From Pseudomonadota bacterium (GTDB taxonomy: Bacteria; Pseudomonadota; Alphaproteobacteria; Puniceispirillales; Puniceispirillaceae): 64,000 nucleotides of DNA. The stretch covers positions 1 to 64,000 of the forward strand of contig JAQCEA010000010.1 of assembly GCA_027620495.1 (NCBI GenBank), written 5' to 3'. Positions 29,868 to 34,234 of this stretch are shown here, piece after piece. The translations under genes were made by a program, and so were the position numbers. How positions within the stretch are numbered: position 1 is the stretch's first letter; every line of letters starts with the position of its first letter. Below the pieces are notes generated by a model. The model had not been told where the DNA came from and made no database searches. It was given only the letters and a program-made list of their open reading frames with translations.

Positions 29868-29999
29868 ATTTATCCTGTTTTAATTCATCTGCCGCGATAT
29901 GGCATTATCCTGTGCGGCGTAAAAATGCGGTGAACGCCGTTTCGTATTTTGCTGAGGGCTGTTATAGAAGAAACCAGCGCGGTGAACAAAAGGCGATTT

Positions 30000-30803
30000 A
30001 TGCAAAATTCACAAGATAGAAAAAGCGATGATGCCGCCATCAGGCGCGCCCGCAACATGGCCCAAGATGACACCATAGATTTTGGCTTTCAAACCGTTGA
30101 GCGTGCGGCGAAAGCCGGGCTTGTCCGCGGCGTGTTTGATTCGGTTGCCAGCCGCTATGACATTATGAATGACGTGATGAGCGGCGGCGTCCATCGGCTG
30201 TGGAAAACCGCAATGATCGATTGGATGGCACCGCAACCAGACCAGCATTTGGTTGATCTGGCAGGCGGCACCGGCGATATCAGCTTGCGATTCTTAAAAG
30301 CTGGCGGCGGGTCCGCCTGTATCACCGACATCAATCAGGCGATGCTGCAAGCTGGCCAGCAACGGGCGCAATTACAACGTCATGCGGGTCAATTAAGCTG
30401 GTGTGTTGGCAATGCCGAAGCCTTGCCACTCGCCAGTGCCACTGCTGATTTTGTGACAATCGCCTTTGGGTTACGCAACGTCACTGACCGGCAAGCGGCA
30501 CTTGGTGAAGCCTATCGCATTCTCAAACCCGGCGGGCGGTTTTTATGTTTGGAATTTTCGCATGTGCAAAATCGGCCTTTGGCAAAACTCTATGATGCTT
30601 TCTCGTTTAACCTTTTGCCAGTTATGGGACAGGTTATTGCGGGTGATGCGGCAAGCTATCGATATCTTGTTGAATCTATCCGCCAATTTCCAAGCAAAGA
30701 AGTGCTAGCCGATATGTTTGCCGCGGCTGGGTTTGCGCAAATCCGCGTGCGCAGGCTGTCAGCTGGCATCGCCTGTATTCATTCTGGCTGGAAACTCGAT
30801 TAA
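30000..30803 (+). CDS. ubiE: Ubiquinone biosynthesis C-methyltransferase
   Basis: The 267-residue SAM-dependent methyltransferase matches UbiE, which methylates the ring carbon of ubiquinone precursors (and menaquinone in other species). Motifs are VFDSVASRYDIMNDVMSGGVHRLWK, the SAM site LVDLAGGTGDISLRF and FGLRNVTDRQAAL. ATG 30000 has AAAAGG upstream; earlier in-frame codons are not family-like. It overlaps ubiB by TAATG, opening a quinone-biosynthesis run. Confidence 0.95.
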   Translation: MQNSQDRKSDDAAIRRARNMAQDDTIDFGFQTVERAAKAGLVRGVFDSVASRYDIMNDVMSGGVHRLWKTAMIDWMAPQPDQHLVDLAGGTGDISLRFLKAGGGSACITDINQAMLQAGQQRAQLQRHAGQLSWCVGNAEALPLASATADFVTIAFGLRNVTDRQAALGEAYRILKPGGRFLCLEFSHVQNRPLAKLYDAFSFNLLPVMGQVIAGDAASYRYLVESIRQFPSKEVLADMFAAAGFAQIRVRRLSAGIACIHSGWKLD

Positions 30804-32311
30804 TGCGGCCTTTATCCCTATTTCTGGCGTTGCTGCGGTTGCCATTGATCGCATGGCATCTTGGGCGGGGCGGGGTGTTGGGTCATCTGGCATTGGTCCG
30901 GCTCTTGCCGGCATGGCTTCGCCATTTATGCCATATTCTAGATAAAATCATCCGGTCTGGATCGGTCACCGCCGATGCCGGCGGTGCGTTGGCACAGGCG
31001 CTGGTGCGGTTGGGTCCGGGCTTTATAAAATTTGGTCAGGCCCTATCAACCCGGGCCGATCTGATTGGGCCAGATATGGGCCATGCACTGGCCCAGCTTC
31101 AAGATCGATTGCCGCCATTTCCAGCGGCATTGGCACGCCGCCTTGTGGCCAGCCAATCTGGCAGACCGCTAGAAGAAAGCTTCGCCAGTTTTGATGATGA
31201 AGCGGTGGCGGCGGCCTCGATCGCACAAGTCCACCGGGCGACATTATGTGACGGGCGTGATGTTGCTGTTAAATTACTGCGCCCGGGCATTGAAAAACGC
31301 ATGCGGGCTGATACCGATTTATTTGATTCGCTGGCGCATATTTTAGAATGGCTTGCCCCTGGCCTGCGGCGGCTCAAACTTGTTGAAGCTGTCGCGCAAT
31401 TTCGTGAGATTTCTGAAACAGAGCTTGATTTTCGGCTTGAAGCTGCCGCTGGTGGGCGGCTGGCAGATAATCTGGCACATGATCAGGGTATTTATGTCCC
31501 ATGGATTGATCTTGAACAAAGCACCAAACAGATGCTGATCATCGAATGGATTGACGGTATTCGCATTGATGATATCGATGGGTTGCGCGCCGCTGGGCAT
31601 GATATTGCCAAGGTCACTGAATTTGCTGCCAGCAGCTTTTTTAACCAGGTATTCCGCGATGGCTATTTCCACGCCGATATGCACCCCGGCAATATTTTCA
31701 TTCGTGATGATGGTGTTTTGGTGCCAATTGATTTTGGCATTATGGGCTATCTGGAATTTGGCGACCGGCTGTTTTTGGCCCAGCTGTTAAGCGCCATGAT
31801 CGATCGCGATTATGACGAAGTCGCGTTGCTACATAAACATGCGGGCATGCTGAAAAACACGGTTTCAGTTCACCAGTTTTCACAAGCCATTCGCGCTGTT
31901 GCCGATCCGGTGATGGGCAAGGCGCTTGGCGAAGTGTCATTAGCCACCGTATTGGGACAAATTTTGCAAATTTCAACACGGTTTGAAATCGAAGTGCAGC
32001 CGGAATTTAATCTGCTTCAAAAAACCATGATGATGGCCGAGGGCGTTGCGCGGCAACTTAATCCAAAAGCCGATATGTGGCAGCTAGCCAAACCTCTGGC
32101 AGAAGATTGGATGGCACAAGAGGCCAGTTTTTCAAAGCAAGCTGAACAGGCGGTCAAAGCGGTTTTTGCGCTGACAACACGCCTGCCATCGCTTCTTGAC
32201 GCGCTGGAACGCCCACACCCAGAACCCCCGCCGCCATCGCCTTGGCCATTACGTTTGGCAATTGGTGCCATTGGGCTTGCTATTCTCAGCTTTTTCACGC
32301 ATTTTCATTGA
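30803..32311 (+). CDS. ubiB: Ubiquinone biosynthesis ADCK/UbiB atypical kinase
   Basis: The 502-residue protein is UbiB, an ABC1/ADCK-type atypical kinase-fold ATPase needed for ubiquinone synthesis at the membrane. KxGQ signature LGPGFIKFGQALSTR (about 71-85), AAASIAQVHRA, VAVKLLRPGI and the catalytic FHADMHPGNIFIRDDG with IDFGIMG are present. The extreme C-terminus is hydrophobic (LRLAIGAIGLAILSFF), the expected membrane anchor. It is coupled to ubiE by a one-base stop/start overlap. Confidence 0.95.
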   Translation: MRPLSLFLALLRLPLIAWHLGRGGVLGHLALVRLLPAWLRHLCHILDKIIRSGSVTADAGGALAQALVRLGPGFIKFGQALSTRADLIGPDMGHALAQLQDRLPPFPAALARRLVASQSGRPLEESFASFDDEAVAAASIAQVHRATLCDGRDVAVKLLRPGIEKRMRADTDLFDSLAHILEWLAPGLRRLKLVEAVAQFREISETELDFRLEAAAGGRLADNLAHDQGIYVPWIDLEQSTKQMLIIEWIDGIRIDDIDGLRAAGHDIAKVTEFAASSFFNQVFRDGYFHADMHPGNIFIRDDGVLVPIDFGIMGYLEFGDRLFLAQLLSAMIDRDYDEVALLHKHAGMLKNTVSVHQFSQAIRAVADPVMGKALGEVSLATVLGQILQISTRFEIEVQPEFNLLQKTMMMAEGVARQLNPKADMWQLAKPLAEDWMAQEASFSKQAEQAVKAVFALTTRLPSLLDALERPHPEPPPPSPWPLRLAIGAIGLAILSFFTHFH

Positions 32312-32351
32312 TATGAATATTTGTGTAATTTCGTGAAATTGAGGCTTGGTG

Positions 32352-33794
32352 ATGACGCCAACCAATCATGTTGATTTAACAGCGATTATGACCGCCCTTG
32401 GTGGCCGGCAGGCCATGCAGGATGTGTTGGGGGTGGGGGCCAGCGCGATCAGCAACTATGTCGCGCGCGGGTCTGTACCAACGCATGTGCGGTCCAAACT
32501 TTATAATGCCCTCACCGCCCGCGGCTATCAGGTCCGGCTTGATGATTTATCGATTATATGCGGCCCGGATGCGGCCACCAGCCCAGCGGCAAAGCCAATG
32601 ATTCTGTTAATCATAGGCGGCGGAATTGCCGCCTATAAAGCATTAGAAACAGCCCGGCAGATGCAGCGGCTTGGCCTAGATGTGACCGGCGTTATGACAA
32701 AATCAGCCGGGCAATTTATCACCCCGTTAAGCGTGGCCGCGCTGACCAACCAGAAATGTTATGATGATCTGTTTTCCCTCACCGACGAAGCGGAAATGGG
32801 GCATATCAGATTGGCACGGTCGGCTGATTTGGTGCTGGTTATGCCGGCCACTGCCAATTTGATGGCACGTGCCGCATCTGGGCTTGCCGATGACCTTGCG
32901 ACAACCATCTTGCTGGCCACAACAGCGCCTATTTTAATGGCACCAGCGATGAATCCAGCCATGTGGGCACATCCGGCTACCGTTGCCAATTTGGAGGTTT
33001 TGCGTCAACGCGGCGTCCATATGATTGGCCCAACCGAAGGCGACACCGCCTGTGGGGAAATTGGCAGTGGACGGATGAGCGAGCCTGCCGATATCGCCGC
33101 GGCGGCCTTTGAACTGGCGGTCAAACGGCCCCAAACGCTGGCTGGCAAAACCGCTATTGTTACCGCTGGCCCGACGGTTGAACCCATCGATTCTGTGAGA
33201 TTTATTGCCAATCATTCATCTGGCAAACAAGGCTATGCGATTGCCGCGTTACTGGCGGCACGCGGCGCGTCTGTCACGCTGATCAGCGGGCCTGTGACCT
33301 TGCCAGCACCCGCAGGGGTAAAGCGCGTTTCGGTACAAACCGCCGCGCAAATGCAGGCGGCAGTCAATGCAGCCCTACCAGCAGATATAGCGATATGCGC
33401 CGCCGCGGTTGCCGATTGGCGCGTTGCCGAGGCACGTCACGCAAAGCTGAAAAAGCCAGATCACCAAAACGCCGCGGGCATGCAACTCACGCTGATTGAA
33501 AACCCGGATATTTTGGCGTCACTCGGGCAATCAGACCAGCGCCCCAAACTTCTTATCGGCTTTGCCGCCGAAACCGAAGATGTGCTGGAAAATGCCACCG
33601 CCAAAAGAAGCCGCAAACAATGTGACTGGATGATTGCCAATCAGGTTGGTGCCGCCGATGACCCGGTCTTTGGCAGTGATCAGAATCATATTATGCTGAT
33701 ATCTGAAACAGCGGTTGAAACCTGGCCTCGGATGCTGAAAACTGAATTGGCAGATAAATTGGCGGAACGAATTACAATGGAATTTTTAACGTGA
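32352..33794 (+). CDS. coaBC: Bifunctional CoaBC with N-terminal helix-turn-helix-like extension
   Basis: The enzyme makes 4'-phosphopantothenoylcysteine and decarboxylates it in coenzyme A synthesis. The flavin-dependent CoaC part (about 82-260) has IIGGGIAAYKALE, APAMNPAMW and the redox Cys in GDTACGEIGSGRM. The CoaB part has VTAGPTVEPIDSVRFIANHSSGKQG and KKPDH. At 480 residues it is about 75 longer than usual. Residues about 8-68 form a separate helical domain (RQAMQDVLGVGASAISNYVA) resembling a Cro/YdaS-type helix-turn-helix. ATG 32352 follows GAGG at 8 nt; no ribosome binding site precedes the internal ATG 32598. It overlaps dut by GTGA. Confidence 0.9.
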   Translation: MTPTNHVDLTAIMTALGGRQAMQDVLGVGASAISNYVARGSVPTHVRSKLYNALTARGYQVRLDDLSIICGPDAATSPAAKPMILLIIGGGIAAYKALETARQMQRLGLDVTGVMTKSAGQFITPLSVAALTNQKCYDDLFSLTDEAEMGHIRLARSADLVLVMPATANLMARAASGLADDLATTILLATTAPILMAPAMNPAMWAHPATVANLEVLRQRGVHMIGPTEGDTACGEIGSGRMSEPADIAAAAFELAVKRPQTLAGKTAIVTAGPTVEPIDSVRFIANHSSGKQGYAIAALLAARGASVTLISGPVTLPAPAGVKRVSVQTAAQMQAAVNAALPADIAICAAAVADWRVAEARHAKLKKPDHQNAAGMQLTLIENPDILASLGQSDQRPKLLIGFAAETEDVLENATAKRSRKQCDWMIANQVGAADDPVFGSDQNHIMLISETAVETWPRMLKTELADKLAERITMEFLT

Positions 33795-34234
33795 GCGCTG
33801 TAACGGTCAAATTCCACCGTCATGCTGAAGATGTTGTTTTGCCTAATTATGCGACATCCGGTGCGGCGGGTATGGATATTGCCGCGCATATCGATAGCGC
33901 GGTAACCCTCGCTCCATTTGCACGGGCCGCCATTACCACCGGTTTTTCCATGCAGTTACCAACTGGTTATGAAGCGCAAATACGGCCACGGTCTGGTCTT
34001 GCACTCAAAAATGGGGTAACCGTCGCCAATGCCCCCGGCACCATTGATAGTGATTATCGCGGTGAAGTGACGGTAATTTTGATTAATCTAAGCCAGCAAG
34101 ACTTTACCATCACATCTGGTATGCGCATTGCACAAATGGTTATTGCCCCAGTCACACAGTGCCGCCTAGAAGACGCATCACAGCTTGATAAAACAGATCG
34201 CGGCACGGGTGGATTTGGATCAACTGGCCTATGA
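33791..34234 (+). CDS. dut: dUTP diphosphatase
   Basis: The 147-residue trimeric-type dUTPase hydrolyses dUTP to dUMP, keeping uracil out of DNA. All five motifs are visible: AAGMDIAA, PRSGLA, GTIDSDYRGE, RIAQMVIAP and the C-terminal RGTGGFGSTG. The GTG start overlaps the coaBC stop by 4 bp, so translation is coupled. The next gene starts 7 bp later. Confidence 0.97.
   Translation: MSAVTVKFHRHAEDVVLPNYATSGAAGMDIAAHIDSAVTLAPFARAAITTGFSMQLPTGYEAQIRPRSGLALKNGVTVANAPGTIDSDYRGEVTVILINLSQQDFTITSGMRIAQMVIAPVTQCRLEDASQLDKTDRGTGGFGSTGL

Follow-up and report, generated by a model that had tools for sequence, protein, structure and literature searches.

The coaBC locus

The stretch of DNA analyzed here (64 kb, referred to below as the window) carries ubiE, ubiB, coaBC, and dut in succession, and a further neighbor of coaBC encodes a MoeB/ThiF-type adenylyltransferase (NCBIfam); the features of the locus are collected in Table 1. 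The open frame of coaBC runs on the + strand from 32346 (TTG) or 32352 (ATG) to 33794, and the product of 32352-33794 has 480 residues. Residues 83-474 match TIGR00521 (CoaBC) with 404.4 bits against a curated cut-off of 219.7, as required of a full-length CoaBC, and residues 1-82 form an extension ahead of this match that contains a small domain. H151, N201, C234, and K365-x-K367-K368, which we take to be active-site residues with roles assigned from E. coli CoaBC, are invariant in 30 aligned sequences, and the active site is in this respect intact; the K-X-K-K motif of CoaBC is named in PMC7794376. A search of the window's genome detected a single coaBC, and it is likely that coaBC and dut are cotranscribed.

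Table 1. Features of the coaBC locus, with positions in the window
Feature	Position	Strand	Basis or remark
ubiE, 5' of ubiB	29949..30803	+	NCBIfam; TTG at 29949 is the mechanical ORF start, true start codon unsettled
ubiB, neighbor 5' of coaBC	30803..32311	+	NCBIfam
Candidate operator, imperfect dyad, steps of ~10 bp	32293..32338		Half-sites; no binding data
GAGG of coaBC, ribosome-binding-site-like	32341..32344	+	7 nt before the ATG at 32352
Cro-type helix-turn-helix domain, CoaBC N terminus	32352..32561	+	Residues 1-70 (helix-turn-helix ~6-70); fold, profile, alignment
Predicted recognition helix ASAISNYVAR	32439..32468	+	Residues 30-39; S34 and N35 invariant in 50 aligned sequences
Variable linker	32562..32597	+	Residues 71-82; low pLDDT at 74-79
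CoaC flavoprotein domain	32601..33110	+	PF02441, residues 84-253
CoaB synthetase domain	33138..33701	+	PF04127, residues 263-450
dut (dUTP diphosphatase)	33791..34234	+	NCBIfam; overlaps the coaBC stop

A conserved Cro-like domain at the N terminus of CoaBC

As a single sequence, the extension gave weak profile matches (YdaS_toxin, E 0.023; Phage_CI_repr, E 0.038; carph-isopro, E 8.7e-5) and reached no Pfam or NCBIfam cut-off; it scored 15.0 bits for YdaS_toxin and 14.8 bits for Phage_CI_repr, for which Pfam sets gathering scores of 30 and 22 bits, respectively. A profile built from 42 relatives matched the Cro protein of prophage Xfaso 1 (3bd1) with an E value of 5.8e-7 in a PDB profile search, in which two BurrH repeat-protein chains rank above 3bd1 through 25-residue stretches that do not pass singly. 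Among the 42 relatives, 34 match YdaS_toxin and 24 match P22_Cro at E<=0.1. AlphaFold2 predicts four helices (residues 9-16, 19-26, 30-39, and 44-56) plus a short beta element, with 10-residue pLDDT means of 84-94 across residues 11-70 of the full-length model and an overall mean of 86.3 for that model and 69.5 for the isolated domain. The closest solved fold to the isolated domain is again 3bd1 (Z 7.7, rmsd 1.7 Å over 58 residues), and the Foldseek E values for the domain are no better than 0.041. Judged by the profile E value and the Z score, the extension is related to a solved Cro both in fold and in sequence, and it is predicted, from sequence alone, to be a helix-turn-helix (HTH) of the phage Cro/YdaS type with helix 30-39 as the expected recognition helix.

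G17, G18, L26, S34, N35, and P43 are invariant in 50 sequences, in which mean column identity is 39%. The HTH codons (residues 5-67) have a dN/dS of 0.02 against the close relative L003 and 0.07 against L004, in both cases below that of the CoaBC core (0.085 and 0.086, respectively), and they are under purifying selection. We discarded a translation start at 32598, which would leave CoaBC without the HTH; such a start is unlikely because Met83 is kept in few relatives (the two closest, a few of family f4, and few others) and because the HTH codons are under purifying selection.

One could propose that the HTH is a structural or partner-binding module whose DNA binding was lost in the fusion. 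In favor of this view, the extension scores under the family cut-offs, and some XRE-type domains are known to act in protein contacts. Against it, two residues of the predicted recognition helix (S34 and N35) are invariant, and protein and DNA covary among CoaBC, HisZ, and phage proteins, as described below. We consider this view very unlikely.

The extension is characteristic of SAR116

The genomes surveyed most closely belong to SAR116, an order which we take to be Puniceispirillales. A protein search found a CoaBC match in 54 of 61 order genomes, the window's own included, and the extension is present in 52 of the 54. Fifty of these were read at the sequence level, all with the domain, and two (G015 and G033) were counted from a match reaching into it; the remaining two matches (G058 and G060) are truncated by contig ends. 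Across the class, a sample of 289 genomes gave matches in 227, for which 150 match rows were listed; all 146 of those outside the order lack the extension, starting at query residue 55 or later, and a strongly diverged domain could have escaped this survey. The domain was also absent by eye from twelve loci outside the order (L054-L065). A scan of GTDB genomes with the domain returned 67 loci. Of these, 57 are CoaBC, and their record titles include SAR116 cluster, Candidatus Puniceispirillum, and plain Alphaproteobacteria; the other 10 comprise nine HisZ fusions and one stand-alone domain.

The original prediction was confirmed in these points, on firmer evidence than before. It had described an N-terminal addition of ~80 residues before the flavoprotein core, and the CoaBC profile match does start at residue 83; it had likened residues ~8-68 to a Cro/YdaS-type HTH, which is borne out by the AlphaFold2 fold, the 3bd1 match, and the 42-relative profile. 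Of the checks it proposed for residues 1-80, structure prediction returned an HTH fold nearest to Cro, and profile search was weak and below cut-offs for the lone sequence and succeeded with the profile of relatives. Its statement that CoaBC usually begins at the flavoprotein domain holds for every listed class match outside the order, the survey it suggested found the extension in all order matches apart from the two cut by contig ends, and the evidence went against the start at 32598 that would have refuted it.

Candidate operator sites upstream of HTH-coaBC

The upstream DNA of relatives contains TTCAC/GTGAA repeats directly before coaBC. Dereplication kept 52 of 74 upstream regions of 160 bp (L130 was excluded, its upstream being cut), and setting family f4 apart left a set of 47. 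As controls, 52 HTH-less loci were picked from the 146 outside rows, without dereplication and with start codons chosen by rule, and five were dropped because the core motif was not recognized in them by script (L168, L172, L175, L178, and L187), which also left 47.

The most frequent 5-mer in inverted pairs is TTCAC, in 21 of the 52 dereplicated regions; in 40 shuffles of these regions its count never exceeded 1, and the highest count for any 5-mer was 11. All 47 HTH-coaBC regions contain a half-site, 42 contain two or more, and 21 contain TTCACN5-6GTGAA, versus 13, 4, and 0 of the 47 controls. GTGAA/TTCAC is likewise the top enriched 5-mer upstream of HTH-coaBC (129 occurrences against 16.2 expected in the 47 regions; 17 against 10.8 in the controls). 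Among same-orientation half-sites, the spacing differs from a multiple of 10 by no more than 1 bp in 72 of 110 pairs, where 33 would be expected. The half-site counts are not independent of phylogeny. Dyad sites at the gene's own promoter, as would suit a Cro/YdaS-type HTH, are found across the order by sequence only, the array of the window being looser, and the presence of conserved sites at this pathway gene is tied to that of the HTH (21/47 against 0/47 palindromes). In family f4 (L036-L043), which has L or Q at residue 39, TTCAT/ATGAA arrays replace the TTCAC palindromes upstream of coaBC, and the top 5-mer is ATGAA (46 against 11.8 expected).

The exact pattern TTCACAN2-5TGTGAA occurs 29 times in the 61 genomes, 15 of them directly upstream of coaBC in 14 genomes (positions were matched to coaBC by hand). 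The other 14 sites, seven inside open frames of at least 70 residues and seven outside such frames, are about as many as the 12 matches of a reversed control pattern, and on this count we discarded a wider regulon beyond coaBC. As a separate observation, three f3 genomes (L148, L149, and L150) have a second TTCACAN3TGTGAA at 2001-2015, outside frames of >=70 residues and ~250 bp from a terminator-like ACCCTACGGGT repeat, which remains unexplained.

The position of the sites leaves room for control at the level of translation, with the HTH bound to the leader of the coaBC mRNA, as the sites are near the start codon, with 21 palindromes in checked loci ending 2-53 bp before the rule-chosen start. 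Against this possibility, the ~10-bp steps suit B-DNA, the sites of phage loci L069 and L071 are within promoter-like spacers, and the best solved fold is that of a DNA-binding Cro protein, and it appears very unlikely to us.

The site of the window

In the window itself, the half-sites are TTCAC at 32294, TTCAT at 32304, ATGAA at 32313, GTGTA at 32323, and GTGAA at 32333. The left part of the candidate operator overlaps the last ubiB codons, in which the left half-site lies, and the ubiB stop, which ends at 32311. The canonical palindrome of 15-16 bp is absent at the window's coaBC, the sole TTCAN7TGAA of the window being elsewhere (53792), and the window's genus has a looser half-site array in its place. 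Nowhere else in the 64 kb are half-sites as numerous within 50 bp; this score was widened to GTGTA after the site had been seen and is not an independent test. The same 44-bp layout is found in L004 (0 mismatches) and L079 (1 mismatch), with the same reservation that the pattern was composed after the site had been seen. A promoter scan found no sigma-70-like promoter at 32150-32420.

The likely target is coaBC(-dut) and not the whole ubiE-ubiB-coaBC-dut cluster, because the conserved sites lie between ubiB and coaBC (32294-32337 in the window). The original prediction that the protein could be a metabolic regulator, for example of its own ubiE-ubiB-coaBC-dut operon, is supported with one refinement: control of its own gene is favored, with binding and repression inferred, and the target is narrowed from the whole cluster to coaBC(-dut).

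Phage and HisZ relatives of the domain

A viral scan with the domain returned 13 loci, in about seven distinct groups by eye. In every one of the 13, TTCAN7TGAA precedes the HTH match by no more than 150 bp (1-3 copies per whole locus; in L066-L068 and L074-L078 the open frame crosses these sites, and the start codon was assumed to be below them). A simple promoter pattern was applied to six of the viral loci, and in two of them, L069 and L071, TTCAN7TGAA falls between TTGACA and a -10-like sequence. GenBank phage MW202785.1, a protein match to the window's extension, contains four TTCAN7TGAA sites against 0.04 expected; it was the single record matched by the extension in a search of named phages, in which the L071 protein matched none. 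In this record (L263), the sites surround a Cro-like frame (1462 onward) that has no annotation and runs in the opposite direction to the genes annotated there.

HisZ carries this Cro-type HTH as a fusion in two groups, the PS1 clade and another alphaproteobacterial family. We observed HTH-HisZ loci in L132-L134, L136, L138, L140, L142, L144, L145, L237, L238, L242, and L243; among the nine fusions of the GTDB scan, HisZ was identified by NCBIfam in L132 and L133 and by motif or likeness in the rest. For the four loci tested, the best NCBIfam E values for HisZ lay between 7e-55 and 3e-86, with no match reaching its equivalog cut-off, and in L132 the fusion is situated between hisS-like and hisG-like frames (by eye). 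TTCAN7-8TGAA occurs upstream in 8 of 11 HisZ loci, with mostly T or A at base 5; one of the two sites in L142 has C.

Residue 39 and base 5 of the half-site

Residue 39, the last of the predicted recognition helix, tends to covary with operator base 5, with exceptions. With R at residue 39, C occupies base 5 in 160 of 253 TTCAN half-sites, compared with 16 of 166 for other residues; R39 pairs with TTCAC, and L, Q, D, T, W, and the K of HisZ pair with TTCAT or TTCAA. By groups, there is agreement in f1/f2, f3, f4, the HisZ proteins of two families, and the R39 phages L069, L071, and L074-L078, as well as in L070, L072, and L137. The exceptions are L073 (A39 with TTCAC), CoaBC proteins with K39 (C in 8 of 23), L066 (R39 with C in one half-site and T in the other), and MW202785.1 (Q39 with mixed C and T). 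These are counts of sequences and not of independent events, nor are they independent of phylogeny; from a set of 14 loci, the five that gave no motif match (L240, L241, L244, L245, and L258) were left out of the comparison. The tendency itself is observed, and it is known from sequence alone.

A further possibility is that a separate, stand-alone regulator reads the TTCAC sites and that the HTH remains on CoaBC as an inert relic of gene fusion. It is true that sites by themselves do not identify their reader, and Cro-like stand-alone relatives are known in phages and in other genomes. On the other hand, the fusion is the sole HTH-profile match (E<=1e-5) in the window's genome, where no second one was found, and in each of the four further genomes of the order that were sampled. 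NF046037 does give a second, weak match in the window's genome (E 0.005), to a frame of 37 residues containing a stop. Moreover, dN/dS of the HTH is lower than that of the core in both relatives compared, the palindromes are found solely where coaBC has the HTH (21/47 versus 0/47), and the site tends to vary together with residue 39. We regard a separate regulator as unlikely.

A putative enzyme-repressor circuit

Our preferred reading is that HTH-CoaBC is a bifunctional enzyme and transcriptional autoregulator, which we consider likely. What has been computed is the HTH, its conservation, the conserved sites, and their link to the presence of the HTH and, with exceptions, to its sequence; binding, repression, multi-site binding by an oligomer, and ligand control are inferred, and there are no binding or expression data. 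In this model, the catalytic core would perform both CoaBC steps of CoA synthesis, while the phage-Cro-type HTH of each subunit would bind the TTCAC/GTGAA half-site cluster directly upstream of coaBC and would repress the coaBC(-dut) promoter, repression rather than activation being an inference. Mycobacterial CoaBC is a tetrahedral dodecamer (PMC7794376), and if HTH-CoaBC is a dodecamer as in Mycobacterium, many HTHs could touch several helically phased half-sites together. The probable signal may be occupation of the CoaB site by CoA thioesters or substrate, such that full CoA pools would lead to tighter repression. Mycobacterial CoaB is inhibited by CoA and CoA thioesters, and acetyl-CoA competes with CTP and phosphopantothenate (PMC7794376); this inhibition concerns the activity of mycobacterial CoaBC, not repression. 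The simplest circuit would be an autorepression of coaBC-dut that tracks the CoA pool, with oligomeric state, direction, and ligand all inferred.

We also consider a bolder reading fairly likely. It holds that phage-Cro-type HTHs, together with their operator type, were captured at least twice onto marine alphaproteobacterial biosynthetic proteins (CoaBC in SAR116; HisZ in the PS1 clade and in one more family), making one-gene feedback circuits in which an enzyme assembly, bearing as many as 12 HTHs in the case of CoaBC, would sense its own product pool and dock on phased half-sites at its own promoter, and that residue 39 and base 5 would be part of a recognition code common to the phage and enzyme versions. 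A search of the open-access literature, covering open-licence papers only (CoaBC or HisZ with helix-turn-helix, SAR116 CoaBC, and coaBC autoregulation), found no title reporting the fusion or the circuit.

SAR116 is a major group of ocean bacteria, and CoaBC is an essential enzyme of coenzyme A synthesis. If our reading is true, an ocean bacterial group sets its CoA supply through a single self-regulating enzyme, and there would be a route from phage repressors to metabolic regulators, with an operator code that is directly testable in a reporter.

Comparison with known systems

The HTH of CoaBC gives a weak match to carph-isopro (NF046037) over residues 11-58, with 22.6 bits (22.8 in the genome search) against a cut-off of 38 bits. 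Twenty of 30 class carph-isopro loci could be displayed by script; they show a different motif, of the GG[ILV]RP.A.K..V...TVQGW type, and nearly all of these domains precede long low-complexity frames that contain a hydrophobic stretch. We discarded membership of the CoaBC HTH in carph-isopro, the match being below cut-off and the displayed members a different subfamily. The alphaproteobacterial carph-isopro domains of L202-L230 mostly head long A/P/E-rich frames with a hydrophobic stretch, which we take to resemble mitofilin-like proteins. In L216, a carph-isopro-type domain is in frame with sequence that by eye resembles NAD(P)H-hydrate epimerase (YjeF N-terminal), perhaps another HTH-enzyme fusion.

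With the Cro of Xfaso 1 (3bd1) and the YdaS and P22_Cro families, the CoaBC HTH shares its fold and recognition-helix region; unlike them, it is fused to a 400-residue enzyme and falls below the Pfam gathering score. With the CoaBC of Mycobacterium (PMC7794376), the window's protein shares the CoaC-CoaB core, whereas the mycobacterial enzyme has no such extension, the solved M. smegmatis model comprising residues 2-412 with CoaC at 1-179.

BirA and NadR are cofactor enzymes with an N-terminal HTH that repress genes of their own pathways. Like them, HTH-CoaBC unites an enzyme and a DNA-binding domain in one chain, the latter being of DNA-binding type by fold and sequence, and it is a cofactor-pathway enzyme with candidate operators at a pathway gene. 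In contrast to BirA and NadR, HTH-CoaBC has a different enzyme, a phage Cro/YdaS-like HTH, a possibly dodecameric core, and one apparent target, its own gene. With DNA binding and metabolite-controlled repression still inferred, HTH-CoaBC is likely to be the CoA counterpart of BirA and NadR, built from a phage Cro-like domain.
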